Assembly: GCA_034440135.1 (NCBI GenBank) | Contig: JAWXBP010000246.1 | Location: 1-64,000, forward strand | Direction: 5' to 3' | Source: Planctomycetia bacterium | GTDB lineage: Bacteria; Planctomycetota; Planctomycetia; Pirellulales; JALHLM01 | Length of the DNA stretch: 64,000 bases | Part shown: one piece after another, positions 1,634 through 25,731 of the stretch | Layout: every line of letters starts with the position of its first letter | How positions within the stretch are numbered: the stretch's first letter is position 1 | Made by a program: the position numbers and the translations under genes | The notes under the pieces: model-generated | What the model was told of the DNA's origin: nothing | The model's input: the letters and a program-made list of their open reading frames with translations, nothing else | Database searches by the model: none

Positions 1634-4149
1634 ATGTTGAATCCTGGCACGGCGATTCCGCCGTTTGTTCGCAGCGTTGCTCTGGCCTGTGTGGTGATGC
1701 TCGGGACGGGATACTCGGCCAACGCCGCCGACCCGCTCGATTGGCCTTCGTGGCGCGGGCCGGAGCAGAACGGCATTTCGCGCGAGTCGAACATCCCCGA
1801 CAAATGGGATGATTCGACGCAGGTCTGGGAAAATAAGTCCGCGCCGACGCGATCCACGCCGCTCGTCATGAACGGCAAGGTCTACGTGCTGGCGATTCAA
1901 GACCCGCTTACCGAAAAGCAGCGCGAAAAGGTGATCTGCCTCGACGCGGTGACGGGCGAGACGAAGTGGGAAAACATCTTCAACGTCTTCCTGTGCGACG
2001 TGCCGGATACGCGCGTTAGTTGGTCGTACTGCGTCGGCGATCCGGCGACCGGCCATGTTTATGCCCTCGGCGTGCAGGGGATGTTTCAATGCATCGACGG
2101 CGAGACCGGGAAGACGATCTGGTCGCGCTCGCTAGGCGAAGAATTCGGCATGGTCAACGTCTACGGCGGACGGACCAACGTGCCCGTCGTGTTCGACGAT
2201 CTGGCGATCATCAGCGCGGTGACGACCGGGTGGGGAGATCAAGCCCGGCCGACGCATCGCTTCCTGGCGTTCGACAAAGCGACCGGCGAACTGCGCTGGA
2301 TCAACGGCACTCGGCCGCAACCGGAAGACACGACCTACAGCGTGCCGCAACTGGCCGTGATTCAAGGCCAGGCGCAAATGATCTTCGGCTCGTCCGACGG
2401 CGGCGTCTGGTCGTTCCAACCGCGCACCGGCAAACCGCTCTGGAATTACACCCTCTCGCCGCGCGGGTTGAATTGCTCGCCGATGGTCGTGGGCGAGACC
2501 GTTTACATGGGCAATAGCGAAGAGAATCGTGACGATAGTTCGATGGGCGCCGTGTGCGCGATCAACGCCACGCTTTCTGGCGACATCACGCAATCGGGCG
2601 AGCTCTGGCGCACGAAGGACGTTGCCGTGGGGCGTAGCTCGCCGGTGCTGATCGACGGCAAGTTGTATTTCTGCGAAGACACCGGTTCGATGCGCGTCGT
2701 CGATGCGAAGACCGGCGAAAGCCTGTCCAAGACAAAGCTCATCGGCACGATGATGCGGGCCAGCTTGCTCTACGCTGATGGCCGCATCTATGCCGGCACC
2801 ACGAGCGCCTGGCATGTGCTGGAGCCGAACGGCGACAAGGTGAAAATCCTGCAGCGCAAGCGGTTGGAAGGCGAAGAGATTTACGGGTCGCCGGTGGTCT
2901 CGCACGGCCGGCTGTATATCCCGACCACGTCGCGCGTCGTGTGCCTCATGAACCCAGGCGCGGGCGAGCCGCAAGCCAGTGCAGCGCCGGCGCCTGCTGT
3001 CGAAGCCGACGTGGCCGCGGATACCAAGCCAGCGCAGATTCAAGTCGTACCGGGGGACTCGCTGGTCAAGCCGGGAGAGACCGTTTCGTTCAAGACGCGC
3101 CTGTTCAACGCCAAGGGGCAATTGCTGAAGGAAGAACAGGCGACGTACACCGTGGACGCCGCGGGCAAAATCGAGGCTTCCGGCGTTTACACCGCTGACG
3201 CGCTGCCCGCGCATCGCGCTTCGCTCGTGACCGCCAAGGTCGGCGAGTTGACGGGAACCGCCCGGGTGCGCGTGGTGCCGGAATTGCCGTGGAAGTTCGA
3301 TTTCAGCGACGGCGTGGTACCCGTCACTTGGGTCGGCATTCGTTTCCGTCATGTCGGCCTCGACGTCGATCTCTACGACAAGCTCAAGGCGCAAGATCCG
3401 CAGGCGGCGCGGTTGTATGTCTATTTGCTCGGTGAATTCGCCGGTCCGCCGCAGCCCTCGGTAAAGGTCGACGATTCCACGCCGCAAAAGAAATGGACGA
3501 CGATCGTTCGCAAGCTGGAGTTGATCGACAAAACACGCAGCCCGAGCAGTTCAAGGCGGCGATGGACCCGAGTCTCAAATTGTTGGTGGACGAAAAGGTG
3601 CTCGCCAAGTGGACGTGGGGCATGTCATTGCTGGGCGGCCCGCAATTGGAAGTGCAGCGAGGCCCGCGCAAAGTGGATGGCAACGGCGCGATGGTCAGGG
3701 CGACGACCGTTCCCAAAGGGACGCGCAGCCAAGGCTGGTTCGGCTCGCCCGCGCTGTCGAACTACACGATTCAGGCCGATTTGCGCGGCGCCGAAGTCAA
3801 CGACAAGGTTCCCGACATGGGCGTGATCGCCCAGCGTTACAAGCTATTCTTGATGGGGGCCAGCCAGCAGTTGACGTTGCATACGTGGACGCCGCAACCG
3901 CAACAAAGCTGGAGCGTACCGTTCACCTGGCAGCCCGACGTCTGGTACACGGTGAAATTCCAGACCAAGAACGTCGACGGCAAGGCAGTGTTGAAAGGCA
4001 AGGTCTGGCCGCGCGATGAACAAGAGCCGGAAGCCTGGACGATCGAGGCCGAAGACAACATCCCCAACACCATCGGCAGCCCCGGACTCTACGGCGACGC
4101 AACCAACGCGGAGTTGTTTGTGGACAATGTGAGAGTAGGAGTGGAGTAG
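1634..4149 (+). CDS. Exported PQQ-like beta-propeller protein, interrupted by a frameshift
   Basis: ATG 1634 gives a signal peptide (RSVALACVVMLGTGYSANAA) and then 'DWPSWRGPEQNGIS', the usual opening of planctomycete PQQ/BamB-like propellers. Propeller blades follow to about residue 440 ('LYVLAIQDPLT', 'GHVYALGVQGMFQC', 'RIYAGTTSAWHVLEP'). Next comes an Ala/Pro linker, an Ig-like segment ('GDSLVKPGETVSFKTRLFNAKG') and a C-terminal beta-sandwich resembling DUF1080 (3-keto-disaccharide hydrolase) domains. The frame breaks near 3531. Upstream it reads LELIDKTRS and would stop at 3826. The frame holding 'NTQPEQFKAAMDPSL' runs on to the stop at 4149. One extra A in the run at 3531-3534 would restore the frame, so this is either a sequencing error or a recent mutation. 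Exact function is unknown; probably periplasmic. Confidence 0.75.
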
Positions 4150-4251
4150 ACGGGAGGAGAAGAGGAGTAAAGGAGACGTTTCTCCTCGCTACTTTTCTCC
4201 CGTGCTCCTTTGCTCCACTGCAACTGCTTTTTCTCTCTCTGGATTTACCGC

Positions 4252-6000
4252 ATGAAACGCCCCTGGTTTATTTTGACGCTGGCCTTCATGGCTGGCTGCG
4301 TGGTCGCGGCGGCGACGAATTTGCTCGCCCAACAGAACGCCCGCCAACCTTCGCCCGCCAAGAAGGTCATTCGCACGGCCGCTGCGCCGACCAAACCGAC
4401 GACGCCGGCGCACGAAGCCGCGCTCGCTCGTCCTGGCGATTGGAATCAGTGGGGCGGAACGCCCGCGCGAAATAACACGCCGGAAGGCACGAACATTCCG
4501 TCGGCATGGAATATCGGTGAGTTCGACAAAAAGACCGGCGAGTGGGATCGGGAATCAAGCGAGAACATCAAGTGGGTCGCCCGGCTCGGCTCGCAGAGCT
4601 ATGGTAATCCCGTGGTGGCGAACGGCAAGGTGTTTGTCGGTACGAACAATGGCGCCGGCTACCTGAAGCGCTATCCCGCGGCCGTCGACTTGGGCTGCTT
4701 GGTCGCGCTCAACGACGCGGACGGCAGCTTCCTGTGGCAGGACAGCAGTGAAAAACTCCCCACGGGCTTCGTCAACGATTGGCCGTTGATGGGCATTTGT
4801 TGCGCACCGTACGTCGAAGGCAATCGCGCCTGGTTCGTCACCAGCCGCGGCGAAGTGATTTGCCTCGACACCGAGGGCTTTCTCGACGGCGAGAACGACG
4901 GTCCCTACAACGCCGAGCCGAGCAACAACAAGGACGAATCCGATCGCATCTGGGTGCTCGACATGATGCGGGACCTGGGCGTGTTCCAGCACAACATGTG
5001 CAGTTGCTCGATCACCGCGACTGGAGACATCCTGTGGATCTGCACGTCGAATGGCGTCGACAATAGTCATGTGAATCTGCCGGCGCCGAAGGCCCCGAGC
5101 TTCATCGCCGTCGACAAGAACTCCGGCAAGGTGCTCTGGACCGATGACTCGCCCGGTCTCAACATCCTGCACGGCCAATGGTCGTCGCCAGCGTACGCCG
5201 AGATTGACGGCGTGCCGCAAGTGATCTTCGCCGGCGGCGACGCCTGGATTTACAGCTTCAAAGCCGACGCCGGGCAGAACGGCAAACCGGAATTGCTCTG
5301 GAAGTTCGACGCCAATCCGAAGGAATCGAAGTACATCCTCGGTGGCGCCGGCACGCGAAACGAGATCATCGCCACGCCCGTGGTGCACAACGGCCTCGTG
5401 TTCCTCGCAGTTGGCCAGGATCCGGAACACGGCGACGGCATCGGGCATCTCTGGTGCATCGATCCCAAGAAGCGCGGCGATATCAGCGGCGAGCTGGCGT
5501 TCAAAGTCGATGATTTGAAGACGCCGATCGCTCCCAAGCGCTTGCAGGCCGTCAACGGCGAAGATGGGGAAGTCGCCCGGCCGAATCCGAATTCCGGCGT
5601 GGTCTGGCACTACGACAAGTTCGATCTTGATGGCGACGGCGAATTCGCCTTCGAGGAGACCATGCACCGCACGTGCGGCACGGCCACCATTAAGGACGAC
5701 ATCCTCTATCTGCCCGACTTCTCCGGTCTGTTTCATTGCGTCGACGCCAAGACCGGCAAGCCGTACTACACGCACGACCTGTTCGCGGCCAGTTGGGGCA
5801 CAGCCCTCGTGGTCGACGGCAAAGTTTTCGTCGGCGACGAAGAAGGCAAGCTGACCATCTTCAAGACCGGCCCGGAAAAAGAGATCCTCGCCGAAATCGA
5901 CATGGGCAACTCGGTCTACAGCACGCCGCTGGTGGCCAACAACGTCCTGTACGTGATGAACAAGACGCACTTGTTCGCGATCACGGAAGGCGGAAAATGA
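4252..6000 (+). CDS. Exported PQQ-binding-like beta-propeller protein
   Basis: ATG 4252 is chosen over the upstream in-frame codon because it starts a clean signal peptide (MKRPWFILTLAFMAGCVVAAATNLLAQ). After a Pro/Ala-rich linker the protein reads 'DWNQWGGTPARNNTPEG', the same opening as the preceding gene. Repeated blades follow, such as 'GNPVVANGKVFVGTNN', 'GEVICLDTEG', 'TPVVHNGLVFLAVGQD' and 'STPLVANNVLYVMNKTHLF'. A short acidic 'FDLDGDGEFAFEE' at about residue 460 resembles an EF-hand-like calcium loop. It is 582 residues long and intact, unlike its upstream neighbour 100 bases away. The spacer at 4150-4245 contains purine-rich and pyrimidine-rich arms (ggagaagaggag / ctcctcgctacttttctccc) that can form a weak hairpin. 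Ligand and role are not known. Confidence 0.85.
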   Translation: MKRPWFILTLAFMAGCVVAAATNLLAQQNARQPSPAKKVIRTAAAPTKPTTPAHEAALARPGDWNQWGGTPARNNTPEGTNIPSAWNIGEFDKKTGEWDRESSENIKWVARLGSQSYGNPVVANGKVFVGTNNGAGYLKRYPAAVDLGCLVALNDADGSFLWQDSSEKLPTGFVNDWPLMGICCAPYVEGNRAWFVTSRGEVICLDTEGFLDGENDGPYNAEPSNNKDESDRIWVLDMMRDLGVFQHNMCSCSITATGDILWICTSNGVDNSHVNLPAPKAPSFIAVDKNSGKVLWTDDSPGLNILHGQWSSPAYAEIDGVPQVIFAGGDAWIYSFKADAGQNGKPELLWKFDANPKESKYILGGAGTRNEIIATPVVHNGLVFLAVGQDPEHGDGIGHLWCIDPKKRGDISGELAFKVDDLKTPIAPKRLQAVNGEDGEVARPNPNSGVVWHYDKFDLDGDGEFAFEETMHRTCGTATIKDDILYLPDFSGLFHCVDAKTGKPYYTHDLFAASWGTALVVDGKVFVGDEEGKLTIFKTGPEKEILAEIDMGNSVYSTPLVANNVLYVMNKTHLFAITEGGK

Positions 6001-20017: not shown

Positions 20018-20076
20018 CGGCCATGGGCGATTGCGCCAAGTCTCGATAGAATGCTGAGCAGGAGGATGATAATACG

Positions 20077-21273
20077 ATGTTAAGCGACGCTGATTTAGGC
20101 TTGCTCATGCAGGATCTGGAATCAGATCGAGTAGAGCGCAAGGCCTCCTTCTCCGATTCCGACCGTGCGCGCGAGGCGGTATGCGCGTTCGCCAATGACT
20201 TGCCAAACCACAATCAAGCTGGCGTACTGTTTTTTGGCGTAAGCGACGACGGTCGTTGCACGAATCTGTCGATCACGGACGACTTATTGCTGCGCCTCTC
20301 CGATATGCGGTCGGACGGAAACATTCTTCCATTTCCGACGCTGGTCGTGCAAAAGAGAATCGTAAACGGTTGCGAAACTGCAGTCGTCATGGTCGCGCCG
20401 GCCGACGCGCCGCCTGTGCGTTTTAAGGGGCGTGTCTGCATCCGTGTGGGGCCGCGGAGAGCGTACGCCAGCGCCGAGGAAGAACGTAGGCTCAGCGAAA
20501 AGCGCCGATCGCGCGATTTGCCGTTTGACTTGCGCGCTATTTCGGCGGCGAGTTTGACGGACTTGGATCTTGACCGCTTCACTCGAGAATACCTCCCAGT
20601 GTCGGTTGCCAGGGACGTATTGGACGCCAACCAACGTACGATCGATCAGCAGCTTGCTTCACTACGATTCATCGCAGTTGAGCCGCCGCATCATCCGACT
20701 GTGACTGGAATCTTGGTTGTCGGGAAATCGCCCCAGGACTTACTGCCCGGCGCGTACATTCAGTTCCTGCGAATTGCGGGCGACCAACTCGCAGACCCCA
20801 TTGCGGCACGCCACGAGATTTTTGGTCCGGTGTTGGACCTCCTGCGTCGTATTGACGAAGTGATGCTGGCGAATATCGACATCGCGACGGACATCCAGGG
20901 AGGGCCATTGGAGGTGCAGCGACCAGACTATCCGCTCGGCGCGCTCCAGCAGCTGGTTCGAAATGCCGTAATGCATCGGGATTACCAGTCGAGCAACGCA
21001 CCGATTCGCGTGACATGGTTCAATGACCGGATCGAGATCCAAAACCCTGGCGGACCATTTGGACAAGTTACGGTGGAAAACTTTGGAACGCCAGGTATCA
21101 CCGACTATCGCAATCCCCATCTCGCGGAGTCGCTACGGAATCTAGGATTTGTGCAACGATTCGGCGTGGGAATCGCGATCGCGCGGAAGCAACTCGCAGA
21201 CAACGGCAGCCCTCCTTTGGAATTCGAGAGGCAGCCAAATCATGTGCTTGCCACCATCAGGAGGCGCACATGA
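20077..21273 (+). CDS. AlbA_2 (Schlafen-like) domain protein with C-terminal HATPase domain
   Basis: ATG 20077 has a good Shine-Dalgarno (aggagg, about 9 bases upstream). The N-terminal 130 residues read as an AlbA_2/Schlafen-type nucleic-acid-binding domain ('ESDRVERKASFSDSDRARE', 'CAFANDLPNHNQAGVLFFGV', 'RVCIRVGPRRAYASAEEERR'). The C-terminal part is the HATPase_c_4 module common in RecG-like 'ATP-binding proteins': 'LQQLVRNAVMHRDY' (N-box), 'DRIEIQNPGGPFG' (G1) and 'FVQRFGVGIAIARKQL' (G2). All key ATP-binding residues appear present. The last four bases overlap the next gene (ATGA), so translation is coupled to the ParA-like ATPase. Base composition looks visibly less GC-rich than neighbouring genes, which suggests transfer. 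Such proteins act in defence or regulation, but the role here is unknown. Confidence 0.85.
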   Translation: MLSDADLGLLMQDLESDRVERKASFSDSDRAREAVCAFANDLPNHNQAGVLFFGVSDDGRCTNLSITDDLLLRLSDMRSDGNILPFPTLVVQKRIVNGCETAVVMVAPADAPPVRFKGRVCIRVGPRRAYASAEEERRLSEKRRSRDLPFDLRAISAASLTDLDLDRFTREYLPVSVARDVLDANQRTIDQQLASLRFIAVEPPHHPTVTGILVVGKSPQDLLPGAYIQFLRIAGDQLADPIAARHEIFGPVLDLLRRIDEVMLANIDIATDIQGGPLEVQRPDYPLGALQQLVRNAVMHRDYQSSNAPIRVTWFNDRIEIQNPGGPFGQVTVENFGTPGITDYRNPHLAESLRNLGFVQRFGVGIAIARKQLADNGSPPLEFERQPNHVLATIRRRT

Positions 21274-22271
21274 GCGTGCCGGTGATCGCGTTTTTCAACA
21301 ACAAAGGGGGGGTCGGTAAGACCTCGCTTGTCTACCACGTTTCGTGGATGCTCGCCGAATTGGGATTTCGCGTGGTGGCAGCAGACTTGGACCCTCAGAG
21401 CAATCTTACGGGCGTGTTTCTTGAGGATGACAAACTAGAGTTGCTTTGGCCCGAAGAAGAGGAACGTCTGACAATCTACGGCGCTGTCCGGCCCATTAAG
21501 GTCGGGCTAGGTGACATTTCAGCCCCCGGACTCGAACCGATCGCATCTAGGCTGGTACTTATTCCGGGAGATATCGCATTGTCCGAGTTTGAGGACGATC
21601 TATCCGCGGCTTGGCCGAAATGCTTAGATCAAGATGAGCGTGCGTTTCGAGTCATGTCGGCTTTTTGGCGCGTGGTACAGAAGGGAGCCGCCGAACATGA
21701 GGCGGATATCGTCCTCGTCGATCTTGGGCCGAATCTCGGCGCAATTAATCGCGCGGCCCTGATCGCAGCGGATTTTGTCGTGATTCCGCTCGGCCCCGAC
21801 CTTTACTCTTTGCAAGGTATGCAAAACCTCGGACCACGACTGCGTGAATGGAGAAAGGGATGGAATGAACGAATGCAAAAAAAGCCAGCATCAATCGGCG
21901 AATTGCCCTCTGGAAACATGACTCCCTTGGGATACATCGTGATGCAGCATTCGGTACGACTGGATCGACCAACCAAGTCCTATGACCGCTGGATTGCGCG
22001 GATTCCAGGCACGTACCGCAAATATGTGCTTGACCAACGCAATGGCGACTCGAATTCCGTTACAAATGATCCGAACTGCTTGCTGCTGCTAAAGCACTTT
22101 CGGAGTTTGATGCCGATGGCGCAAGAAGCAAGAAAGCCAATGTTCGCTCTGAAGCCAGCGGACGGCGCACTTGGAGCCCATGCAAACGCCGTTCTGGACG
22201 CGTCGGCGTCGTTTCGGAAACTGGCGAACGAAATCACGCGCCGCGCGGGCATCGTGAAATCGTCTGCATAA
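21270..22271 (+). CDS. ParA/Soj-like deviant Walker-A ATPase, coupled to the AlbA_2 protein
   Basis: The 333-residue protein begins 'VIAFFNNKGGVGKTSLVYHV', a deviant Walker A with the signature Lys12 of ParA/MinD ATPases. 'VVAADLDPQSNLTGVFL' (A') and 'ADIVLVDLGPNLGAINRAAL' (Walker B region) follow. From about residue 190 the sequence differs from chromosomal ParA: 'LREWRKGWNERMQKK', then 'TPLGYIVMQHSVRLDRP'. The gene starts within the stop codon of the AlbA_2 gene. No parB or parS-like sites are seen, so ordinary plasmid or chromosome partition is unlikely. Like its partner it looks less GC-rich than the window. A two-protein ATP-dependent system acting on nucleic acid is inferred. Confidence 0.85.
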   Translation: MSVPVIAFFNNKGGVGKTSLVYHVSWMLAELGFRVVAADLDPQSNLTGVFLEDDKLELLWPEEEERLTIYGAVRPIKVGLGDISAPGLEPIASRLVLIPGDIALSEFEDDLSAAWPKCLDQDERAFRVMSAFWRVVQKGAAEHEADIVLVDLGPNLGAINRAALIAADFVVIPLGPDLYSLQGMQNLGPRLREWRKGWNERMQKKPASIGELPSGNMTPLGYIVMQHSVRLDRPTKSYDRWIARIPGTYRKYVLDQRNGDSNSVTNDPNCLLLLKHFRSLMPMAQEARKPMFALKPADGALGAHANAVLDASASFRKLANEITRRAGIVKSSA

Positions 22272-22303: not shown

Positions 22304-23470
22304 TCAATCCAGCCAGTCCCGCTCCGCCAATCGTTCCGGCGTGTAGACTTCCGTCACGTAGCTGACGTCCTTGCTGATCAGTGATTCGACTTCCAGCTTG
22401 AAGCCGTTCTGCAGCATTTTCTCGATTTCCTTTTGCCAGGCTTTCTTGGCCGCGAACCAGGGGTATTCCGCGATTTGTCGGGCGCGCTTGATGTCCACGG
22501 CGTTCAGATTGATCTTCACGCTAGGCGACAACTCGCAGCGTTCGAAGTCGATGGACCGCAATCCCAGAAATTTGGCGTCCGGAATCGCCATCCGCTTCGA
22601 TTCGTACGCGAGGTTGATCGAGCCTTGCTTGATGACGCTGTAGATGTAGTACCCCCACGGATCATTATCGAGCAGACAGTACACGGGCAAATTCAGCTCA
22701 TTGTGAAGGCGATTGAGCAACCGGCGCACGCCGCGCGGGGGCTGGCCTTTCCCGTGAGTCAACAAGCAGTTGTGCTTTTTCCAGAACTTGTCCTCATTGA
22801 AGCGCTGCCAGACCGTGCCTTTTTCGACGTGGAGAATGAACTTGGCAGTGCACTTCTTGATCTGAATCGTCTCTGGCTCCACGATCGACGGGATTCCGTA
22901 CCCGCCGGAGCCCATCCGCGCGCAATCGATTTCGTCGCCGCGATCGACAAGCACGATATCCCCGACCAGGTCTCCCCATTTCTCGGCGAACAGGTGCAAT
23001 TCCTCGCGCAGGCTGTCGAGCATGACCTCGACATCCTCGATAATTGGGTCGCATTCATCCTGGTCGTTGAATGTCTCCTCGTTCGTGCCTCTGATGGTCC
23101 CCTTGAGCATGTAGAAGAGACCGCGGATGGAGCTGTTTTTCCCTTCCGCGATCAGACGATTGCAGCCTTTGGCGACCAGCAAAGTCTGCATATAGGCCTT
23201 GGCCTGGGAGACATTGAAGAGCTGGCGCCGATTGGTGTTCGACCCCATCTCGATAAAACGCTTGGACTTGTTGTACTTGACGTTCGACAGGGATCGCGCC
23301 GGAATCTCGAGTTGTGGATCACGACGTTTTTCTACGACGGTTACGACGTCGTTCGCCAGTTTCATAATGCTGTTGAACGTCTTCTGATCCCTGTCCGACA
23401 AACGACGCTGCGCGCCCGCTGCCGTCGTGTTGGAGGACGTTGATGCCTTCTTCGGTGTCCGTTTCGCCAT
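22304..23470 (-). CDS. top6A: DNA topoisomerase VI subunit A (Spo11-like)
   Basis: The 388-residue protein has the winged-helix motif 'SSIRGLFYM', whose final Tyr (about residue 120) aligns with the DNA-cleaving Tyr of Spo11/Top6A. The usual acidic residue after Arg is replaced by Gly. The Toprim domain is intact: 'FILHVEKGTVWQRF' supplies the catalytic Glu and 'PVYCLLDNDPWGYYIYSV' the DxD metal site. ATG 23470, with GGAAGGG just upstream, is preferred to a TTG 24 bases earlier. It lies 20 bases downstream of top6B in one operon. Topoisomerase VI passes DNA duplexes through double-strand breaks using ATP. It is typical of archaea and plants and patchy in bacteria. Confidence 0.92.
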   Translation of the reverse strand: MAKRTPKKASTSSNTTAAGAQRRLSDRDQKTFNSIMKLANDVVTVVEKRRDPQLEIPARSLSNVKYNKSKRFIEMGSNTNRRQLFNVSQAKAYMQTLLVAKGCNRLIAEGKNSSIRGLFYMLKGTIRGTNEETFNDQDECDPIIEDVEVMLDSLREELHLFAEKWGDLVGDIVLVDRGDEIDCARMGSGGYGIPSIVEPETIQIKKCTAKFILHVEKGTVWQRFNEDKFWKKHNCLLTHGKGQPPRGVRRLLNRLHNELNLPVYCLLDNDPWGYYIYSVIKQGSINLAYESKRMAIPDAKFLGLRSIDFERCELSPSVKINLNAVDIKRARQIAEYPWFAAKKAWQKEIEKMLQNGFKLEVESLISKDVSYVTEVYTPERLAERDWLD

Positions 23471-23490
23471 GGTGACCCTTCCGTTTTCGA

Positions 23491-25488
23491 TCAAGTGTCC
23501 TGCGGGACGATCAGCACGTTGTCTCCAAAATCTACTTCCGCTTCTTCGATGGCCTTGCCGGACTGATCGAACCTGGTATCTGCCTCGGCAGTTTTCTTTT
23601 TTGCTACCAGCAGAAGTTGTTCGTAGAGCGCTTTTTTATCCGCCCCGTTGATCTCGTGGACCGCCGTGGCGACTTCTCCCAGATAGCGCAAGAAGATATT
23701 GCGGCGCTGCCCCTCCTGCTGCACGCGCTGGCGGCGTTTGAGGTACATGCCGAGTTTTCGGCCCACGCTTTGCAGGGCGAGGCGGAGTTCCTTTTGAATC
23801 TCCGGGTAGCCAGCGACTGCTTCTTTCGATTCGCTCGTGAACGGCACCCAGACGCTCGCCATGTGGACCATGATGCTCACGGGGCCGCCCGGCAGCCCGC
23901 CGCGGGATTGCGTCAGTCCGTAGGAGCGCCAATTCGTGGCCATCACTGCTTGCGTAATGGCGCAACCTGCTTGCTGAAACTGCAACGGCACGCGGTTGGC
24001 GAACCGCATCACGGACATCGTTTGTCCGTCATCCAGGTTGACGTTGTGCATCGCCTCGAAGAGCGTGTCGACTTCCTTCTTCGCCAGTTTCGCCGGCGAT
24101 ACCCGCACGCCCACTTTGGCGGCGTCGAGAATCTTGTCCGCCGCGTCACTGCCCAGGCCATGGAACGTATTCACCAGGAACTGCCGCAACGTGCGAGCGT
24201 CGCTCTCGGAGAGCAACTCGTCGAGCGCGTCGCGCGTGACCTTCTTAGTCGGCGAACTGCCGCCGTAAGCCAGCGCCGCTTCGATCAGAAACGGATTCCC
24301 GCGATACACCGCCGGCGGCCGCGTGCTGGCAACGTAAAACTCGCCGGGCACGACGTGATGCAGCCCCTTGAGCAACGTCTGCTCGCCGATCGGCGAGATG
24401 CAATCGGTGGCCGGCGCCGGAATGCGTGTTTGTTGGATGGCCTGAAAGAGCGCGTCGGCCTCTTGCTGGCCGATTCTGCGTGGGTTGGCGCGCGTGGAGA
24501 GTTTCGCCGTTTTGCAGAGCCCTTGCGCGGTGCTCGGGCTGACGCGGGAAAAACTCTGCGTGAGGAATTGCGACAGCGATCCGCCCGGCGAATCCTTGAG
24601 CAGCGCGACCAGCCGACCCAACTCGACGCCGTAGGGATGCGGCTTGATCTCTTTCGGCTCGACGGGGAGTTCGTCCGTGCTGCGCGTGTAGTCGCGCTGT
24701 TCGTTGTCCGGATCGAGGTAATGGAACGTCGCGTGCGGGTTGGCGATCGCGGTTTGTTCCAGGTACTCGTCGACGCTGCCGCGGCCGCGCTGGTGTTTGC
24801 CTTCCAGCTCGATCGTGACGCGCGTGCCGTGGTCCTGATCGACCCATTCGATGCCGTGCTTGGCGATGTATTCCGCGCCGGCTTCGCCCGGCGGGATGTC
24901 GACGCCTTCGCCTTTGCCGTTCAGAATCTCCGGTTTGTTTTTCTTGGTGTCGATCTGGATCTCGAAATAGTGCGACGGCTTTTTCTTATGCGTCTTGGAG
25001 ATGATTTTGACTGGTTTGCCGGTCGTTAGCACGCCATACATTCCGGCGGCGCTGATGCCGATGCCTTGTTGGCCGCGGCTCATTCGCAGGCGATGAAACT
25101 TCGAGCCGTACAGCAGCTTGCCGAAGATCAGCGCGATCTGCTTTTTCAGAATGCCGGGCCCGTTGTCCTGGACGCCGATTTTGAAGCGATTGGCGGAGGT
25201 TTGCTGGATGTGGACCCAGATTTCCGGTAGGATGCCGGCCTCTTCACAGGCGTCGAGCGAATTGTCGACGGCTTCCTTGACCGTGGTCAGCAGCGCCTTG
25301 CGGGGGTTGTCGAAACCGAGCAGGTGGCGGTTCTTGGCGAAGAACTCGCTGACGGAGATATCACGCTGGCTGGCGGCCATGCTTTCGGCCGTCGCGCGGC
25401 GACGCCCGTTCTTGGACGCCTTGCCGTTCGTCGCGGGAGACTCTTCCGATTCGGTTGAGGTTTCGTCCGTGGTGACCTCGTCGATCAT
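23491..25488 (-). CDS. top6B: DNA topoisomerase VI subunit B (GHKL ATPase)
   Basis: This is the ATPase subunit that dimerises on ATP and drives strand passage by Top6A. An acidic, low-complexity N-terminus of about 40 residues precedes 'SVSEFFAKNRHLLGFDNPRK'. The GHKL motifs follow: 'TVKEAVDNSLDACEEAG' (N-box), 'VQDNGPGILKKQI' (G1) and 'RGQQGIGISAAGMYG' (G2). A helix-two-turn-helix region is visible around 'LSESDARTLRQFLVNTFHGLGSDAA' (two parts: LSESDARTLRQFL and VNTFHGLGSDAA). The transducer domain follows ('FANRVPLQFQQAGCAIT', 'HMASVWVPFTSESKEAV'). The start is taken at ATG 25488 with a gagaggg box; an in-frame GTG at 25518 lacks one. Length (665) is somewhat above the archaeal norm. Confidence 0.92.
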   Translation of the reverse strand: MIDEVTTDETSTESEESPATNGKASKNGRRRATAESMAASQRDISVSEFFAKNRHLLGFDNPRKALLTTVKEAVDNSLDACEEAGILPEIWVHIQQTSANRFKIGVQDNGPGILKKQIALIFGKLLYGSKFHRLRMSRGQQGIGISAAGMYGVLTTGKPVKIISKTHKKKPSHYFEIQIDTKKNKPEILNGKGEGVDIPPGEAGAEYIAKHGIEWVDQDHGTRVTIELEGKHQRGRGSVDEYLEQTAIANPHATFHYLDPDNEQRDYTRSTDELPVEPKEIKPHPYGVELGRLVALLKDSPGGSLSQFLTQSFSRVSPSTAQGLCKTAKLSTRANPRRIGQQEADALFQAIQQTRIPAPATDCISPIGEQTLLKGLHHVVPGEFYVASTRPPAVYRGNPFLIEAALAYGGSSPTKKVTRDALDELLSESDARTLRQFLVNTFHGLGSDAADKILDAAKVGVRVSPAKLAKKEVDTLFEAMHNVNLDDGQTMSVMRFANRVPLQFQQAGCAITQAVMATNWRSYGLTQSRGGLPGGPVSIMVHMASVWVPFTSESKEAVAGYPEIQKELRLALQSVGRKLGMYLKRRQRVQQEGQRRNIFLRYLGEVATAVHEINGADKKALYEQLLLVAKKKTAEADTRFDQSGKAIEEAEVDFGDNVLIVPQDT

Positions 25489-25731
25489 TTTCCCTCTCGA
25501 TTTGCGGGGCGCGGGCACGGTCAGATGCGGCTTATTCCGGTGGGGCCGATTGTAGCGTTTATAGGGCGATTTTCCCAGCCGACTTGGCGGCGCAAGTCCC
25601 TACAGGGCGTTAGTTTGTTACATCCGGCAGACAAAGATTTACCCGCGCCGCCGGACCCGGCCGAAAGGGAAAGCTGACAGCGAGCGAAGTCGCTCGTCAC
25701 ACGGCTCCCGGGAGAACTGTAGATCGACGTT

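Follow-up and report, generated by a model that had tools for sequence, protein, structure and literature searches.

A Schlafen-type gene overlapping a ParA-family ATPase gene: a predicted anti-phage module whose relatives carry other effectors

In a planctomycete contig, a gene for a Schlafen-type AlbA_2 protein with a C-terminal histidine-kinase-type ATPase domain runs into a gene for a ParA-family ATPase, directly beside a topoisomerase VI operon. What does such a pair do? A sequence-only reading of the 64,000-nucleotide stretch that contains it (the window) had proposed a possible defence or genome-maintenance module acquired by transfer. We compared the pair with its surroundings, followed it through other genomes, modelled both proteins and weighed the competing explanations for its function.

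The gene pair in the window

Coordinates, Pfam domains and sequence all agree on the architecture described in that reading, an AlbA_2/HATPase gene joined to a ParA gene by an ATGA overlap (Table 1). Both open reading frames are intact. The ParA start codon is preceded at 5 nt by an AGGAGG, placed within the last stretch of the Schlafen gene, which makes translational coupling plausible.

Table 1. Features of the pair and the adjoining operon, in window coordinates
Feature	Position	Strand	Basis
Shine-Dalgarno AGGAGG, 5' of Schlafen gene	20060..20065	+	sequence
Schlafen-type gene, 398 aa; predicted RNase effector	20077..21273	+	ORF, Pfam, AlphaFold2, Foldseek
SLFN_AlbA_2 domain, residues 15-127	20119..20457	+	Pfam PF04326, E=9e-13
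HATPase_c_4 (GHKL) domain, C-terminal, residues 308-393	20998..21255	+	Pfam, E=3.5e-17
Shine-Dalgarno AGGAGG for ParA, within 3' end of Schlafen gene	21259..21264	+	sequence
ATGA start/stop overlap of Schlafen and ParA genes	21270..21273	+	sequence
ParA-family ATPase gene, 333 aa	21270..22271	+	ORF; Pfam AAA_31/ParA, residues 5-202, E=3e-27
Deviant Walker A NNKGGVGKT, ParA residues 10-18	21297..21323	+	conservation in alignment A3
Topoisomerase VI A and B genes, adjoining the pair	22307-25518		Pfam

The pair is also less GC-rich than its neighbours, as had been noticed. GC content is 0.571 in the Schlafen gene and 0.547 in the ParA gene, and GC3 is 0.636 and 0.592, respectively, compared with 0.73-0.80 in nine other window genes. 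Additionally, the codon-adaptation scores of the two genes are the lowest among the eleven window genes tested. The codon usage of the pair is foreign.

The surrounding genes are metabolic (GlcF-like upstream) or belong to the topoisomerase VI operon, so that the pair has ordinary neighbours in the window. The GlcF-like and topoisomerase VI genes are core genes: among six relatives examined from the same order, four or five have them, on separate contigs or far apart; the pair itself is rare within the order. An empty insertion site was sought within the same genus in G001, whose assembly is 83% complete and has neither of the genes that flank the window pair. The operon does adjoin the pair, as reported, but this adjacency is not conserved in relatives, and Top6A (found in five of the six) is a core gene that is unlinked to the pair in G021 and other genomes. 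We therefore rejected a functional connection to topoisomerase VI. The 2023 PADLOC models gave no strong full-protein match to the window pair, the best being a partial match to an Ago-related domain (3.9e-16) and one to the P-loop only (3.7e-7).

Conservation of the pairing and of the active sites

To follow the pair, a ParA-family profile was scanned over one genome per species, and the best 80 loci (53-68% identity) were retained. These span planctomycetes, acidobacteria, cyanobacteria, desulfobacteria, myxobacteria, proteobacteria, chloroflexi, actinobacteria, bacteroidetes, methanogens and others, placing the pair in at least 15 phyla. A Schlafen gene lies directly upstream of ParA in all 80 best loci (as a fragment in L037), and a 4-nt NTGA overlap is kept in 77, so the adjacency seen in the window recurs in many phyla. 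This pairing is far beyond chance. Pairwise distances among the Schlafen proteins correlate with those among the ParA proteins, with a Mantel r of 0.65 against a permutation maximum of 0.27. Neighbour clustering of 82 loci found no third conserved gene, the next commonest gene occurring in 5 of 80, and no conserved ParB/CBP-type gene beside ParA.

Mapping 16 phyla on a tree of the concatenated pair takes 25 changes of phylum label, indicating that the module spreads horizontally. In an unbiased sample of the phylum, ParA is found at E<=1e-30 in 22 of 392 planctomycete genomes, and these are scattered. Composition and distribution are thus unlike those of the planctomycete core, and foreign codon usage, patchy distribution and the phylum changes on the tree all favour the acquisition by transfer that had been suggested from the sequence.

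The Schlafen proteins linked to ParA form a subfamily with a shorter frame, set apart from a broader Schlafen/HATPase family (E<1e-80 versus >1e-56) that is common in planctomycetes without ParA. Among 15 intact planctomycete copies of the subfamily gene, 14 have ParA directly downstream and the fifteenth stops at a contig edge. Elsewhere in the planctomycetes, the Schlafen gene is frameshifted, stopped or truncated (loci L220, L230/L237 and L233; genomes G253, G322 and G208), and some of the loci with a broken gene still retain ParA, as expected of a costly, dispensable cassette. The ParA at one locus (L236, 1026-2096) has an altered Walker A (NTIGGVGKT), lacks a Schlafen gene and sits beside a carboxyltransferase-like gene; it is a decaying remnant. 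A single-protein Schlafen query of viral contigs returned no close relatives, but the pair turned up with ParA profile queries (L104 and L105).

An alignment of 51 Schlafen proteins shows no variation at E15 or E20, and position 57 is Asp in 44 and Asn in 6. These residues correspond in motif and spacing, aligned by motif and not by structural superposition, to E205, E210 and D248 of rat SLFN13, a triad at which mutations reduce or abolish the cleavage of tRNA by that enzyme (PMC5862951). The protein has both marks of a Schlafen-type RNase, the AlbA_2 domain and the Glu/Glu/Asp carboxylate site, and it is most likely an endoribonuclease with tRNA or rRNA as its target. The GHKL residues N296, H300, G325, G329, N346 and G365 are likewise invariant, and the ATP-lid residues are retained. 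The catalytic Glu292 of the N-box is replaced by Gln in 38 of the 51 proteins, which suggests ATP binding more than turnover. In ParA, the KGGVG and Thr of the Walker A motif are invariant and its last Lys is present in 49 of 51 sequences (alignment A3); D39, D41 and D151 are also invariant, so that the Walker A' and B Asp residues are retained. By these alignments, ATP sites are kept in both proteins.

AlphaFold2 models of the Schlafen protein (pLDDT 91.7) and of ParA (pLDDT 93.8) were compared with the PDB using Foldseek. The closest match to the Schlafen model is DIP2311 (3lmm), followed by histidine-kinase ATPase domains, human SLFN11, SLFN14 and the SAMD9 tRNase domain. The ParA model, which carries a C-terminal extension of about 100 aa relative to Soj, best matches DIP2308 (3pg5) over its full length and otherwise Soj/ParA structures. 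Both proteins thus find their best structural match in C. diphtheriae, in two proteins with locus tags three apart that are apparently near neighbours in that genome. DIP2308 and DIP2311 come from structural genomics, are uncharacterised and are about 20% identical to the pair, and 3lmm is longer, at 583 aa.

Defence operons and exchangeable partners

Several copies of the pair lie within defence operons. On an IMG/VR contig (L105), the gene order is PglX (E=0), Schlafen, ParA, PglZ (1.9e-281) and BrxL (4.5e-295), which places the pair inside a BREX operon; this location was seen at that one locus and is neither general nor found in the window. In approximately ten loci, the pair is inside or beside systems of the Hma/DUF499 type. 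In L081 and L082, it is flanked by a DUF1156 methylase on one side and an SNF2 helicase on the other. The end of ParA is overlapped by an HmaB-type methylase in L035, and HmaA/HmaB-like genes are nearby in L025, L028, L039, L042, L066, L069 and L087. At L042, a second Schlafen/HATPase protein of 546 aa (3795-5435) is encoded between the HmaA-type helicase and the pair. Hma is a DUF499-centred system related to BREX, and Schlafen-HATPase-wHTH proteins occur in more than 1000 taxa bearing BREX/BR loci (PMC12839542).

At most of the 80 loci, however, the genes that adjoin the pair include none recognised as defensive. In a rough comparison of defence-island enrichment, PADLOC matched 192 families among 105 pair neighbours versus 71 among 105 random genes, a random set in which one locus held a CRISPR type III operon; the result favours the defence-island proposal but is suggestive only. 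Matches to MADS mad3 and mad8 near cyanobacterial pairs were discarded as probably generic, because the nearest Pfam families in the neighbour set include UvrA/ABC ATPases.

Beyond the pair, the ParA family has more distant members that are 25-40% identical over their full length and are found mostly on plasmids and in prophages. These ParA genes overlap downstream genes for SIR2_2, RelA_SpoT-domain or HEPN_RiboL-PSP proteins, all of which retain their catalytic motifs. Examples of SIR2 partners are found on plasmids of Salmonella, Spirosoma and Neorhizobium, and examples of HEPN partners on Burkholderia glumae plasmids, in three planctomycetes and in phage Pf1. Genome G034, from the window's own order, has a toxSAS-like pair (L014, 468-2193) in which ParA precedes a 236-aa protein with a RelA/SpoT domain. 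In the ParA tree, each partner type has its own clade, the RelA/SpoT partnership arose at least twice, and solo ParAs are interspersed. The ParA of the Schlafen pair branches separately from two canonical proteins of the ParA/Soj type that served as the outgroup. Effectors have thus been swapped on a shared ParA scaffold.

Several of these loci have features of their own. In filamentous phage Pf1 (L211), the HEPN-like ORF lies directly downstream of a ParA-like 'putative regulatory protein' (2567-3520) and is unannotated in the record. A three-gene set of DNA methyltransferase, ParA and SIR2 genes, close or overlapping, recurs in L006 (5908-8922), L149 (3851-6907), L150 and L160. In the wider family, numerous ParAs stand alone, so that ParA may also function with no effector. 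Prophages commonly carry such solo copies. Some lie just downstream of the prophage repressor, as in Salmonella phage ST160, where the repressor is c2 (L210, 2989-4062), and in E. coli KE47 (L010, 6989-8065); this is the position of rexAB-type exclusion genes. The segment of repressor and ParA is matched in 206 of 5426 complete E. coli genomes. These solo prophage ParAs may be exclusion factors or decoy antitoxins.

Readings of the pair and their meaning

We judge it probable that the two genes form a compact anti-phage module that spreads horizontally and is of an abortive-infection or toxin-antitoxin-like kind, with the Schlafen protein as effector and the ParA-family protein as an ATP-dependent control subunit. 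Its predicted defence role is well supported by context. Counting against this reading are the ordinary neighbours at most loci, the window's included, the roughness of the PADLOC comparison, the many solo ParAs and the Asn at position 57 in 6 of 51 Schlafen proteins. The two genes might instead be kept mainly by addiction, with ParA as antitoxin and the Schlafen RNase as toxin, stabilising themselves or mobile elements and acting against phage only incidentally. Two small overlapping genes, copies broken in the Schlafen frame, the plasmid and prophage locations of the ParA family, and relatives that carry toxSAS-like RelA/SpoT and HEPN proteins, which are typical toxins of such systems, would all fit. 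However, Schlafen-type pairs are mostly chromosomal and several sit within BREX/Hma operons, which speaks for immunity. We consider maintenance chiefly by addiction unlikely, while noting that addiction and abortive infection are not mutually exclusive.

Genome maintenance, the other half of the sequence-only proposal, found no support. As a DNA-segregation module, ParA would position DNA and the AlbA_2/HATPase protein would be its DNA-binding partner in place of ParB, an idea consistent with the ParA fold and its intact ATP site and with the historical labelling of AlbA_2 and HATPase_c_4 as DNA-binding or RecG-like. Yet there is no conserved third gene such as ParB, and the ParA branch is separate from the two canonical ParAs; on these grounds we rejected plasmid partition. 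The distribution is patchy and chromosomal, and relatives are paired with NADase, RelA/SpoT and HEPN enzymes, so segregation has only a very slim chance of being right. What stood of the proposal is defence, favoured by the BREX and Hma/DUF499 embedding and by the effector-swapping relatives. It is also improbable that the Schlafen/HATPase protein is a stress-response regulator, transcriptional or tRNA-based, that is modulated by ParA and has no role against mobile elements. The broader AlbA_2/HATPase family, with its many planctomycete members that lack ParA, is often annotated as regulatory, but the ParA-linked subfamily is distinct from it, spreads horizontally and patchily with loss and decay, and is inserted in defence operons.

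In the anti-phage module that we favour, the Schlafen-type protein would be the effector, a presumably toxic endoribonuclease acting on tRNA or rRNA, and translational coupling would supply the ParA ATPase in a fixed ratio to it. As a shared ATP-driven component with exchangeable toxic partners, ParA is best read as a sensor that also inhibits or serves as an assembly platform; its partner enzymes (Schlafen, SIR2, RelA/SpoT and HEPN) would then be the effectors, stalling or killing the infected cell. Through direct binding, ParA may hold the Schlafen RNase inactive, or position it or bring it to its target, in response to ATP and to bound nucleic acid or phage protein. Invasion would change the state of the ATPase, the trigger being, for example, phage DNA, a nucleoprotein, or a phage protein that blocks a co-located BREX or restriction system. 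Once activated, the Schlafen protein would cleave tRNA or rRNA and so protect against phage. By analogy with PARIS, the location within BREX suggests a back-up that would fire once restriction is blocked.

None of the components is of a new kind: defence Schlafen RNases, ATPases of the ParA type and modules that join an ATPase to an effector are all known. Like PARIS, the pair combines an ATPase and a predicted RNase in two genes, is associated with BREX and is proposed to act by tRNA-cleaving abortive logic. PARIS, however, consists of AriA, an OLD-type ABC ATPase, and AriB, a TOPRIM tRNase, whereas Pfam and PADLOC assign the window proteins to ParA/AAA_31, with a deviant Walker A, and AlbA_2. 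In HerA-SIR2 and HerA-DUF4297, one ATPase scaffold is likewise combined with exchangeable effectors, but it is a hexameric FtsK/HerA ATPase rather than one of the ParA/MinD type. ParABS systems (Soj/Spo0J, plasmid ParA) share the ParA fold and deviant Walker A; the pair differs in its C-terminal extension, its predicted nuclease partner and the lack of a conserved ParB/CBP-type neighbour. The sister modules with the same ParA family use toxSAS/RelA-SpoT toxins, HEPN toxins and ThsA-like SIR2 NADases in place of Schlafen, and to our knowledge the usual antitoxins or sensors of these effectors are not ParA proteins. Bacterial Schlafens with the AlbA_2 nuclease domain act in defence according to a preprint (10.1101/2025.07.24.666596), as it is cited in PMC12839542. 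The Schlafen-HATPase-wHTH proteins of BREX/BR loci resemble the pair in joining AlbA_2 to a minimal histidine-kinase-type ATPase and in their BREX and DUF499/Hma association; they have a wHTH and are described without mention of ParA (PMC12839542), whereas the pair has a form of about 395 aa tied to a dedicated ParA. Consistent with the initial impression that no characterised system has exactly these two genes, a literature search, with preprints and many subscription journals outside its scope, found no matching system of ParA with SIR2, HEPN, toxSAS or Schlafen proteins.

Quite possibly, the ParA scaffold marks out a wider class that has yet to be described. In its widest form, the extended ParA-family ATPase would be a general immune sensor or regulator scaffold in bacteria and archaea, with toxic effectors that differ from clade to clade and are of at least four unrelated kinds: Schlafen RNase, SIR2 NADase, RelA/SpoT-type enzyme and HEPN RNase. 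Together these would make up a class of modular anti-phage systems, a claim for and against which we find the balance even. The known task of ParA/MinD ATPases is to position DNA and proteins, and they are not known for a role in immunity. If the claim is true, a ParA lineage that carries four kill-or-stall enzymes and is found inside BREX operons adds a new principle of immune control. It would also explain many genes whose annotation goes no further than 'ParA family protein', 'ATP-binding protein' or 'hypothetical', and it offers pairs that are ready for testing, among them that of the window and those of prophages with SIR2, RelA/SpoT or HEPN.
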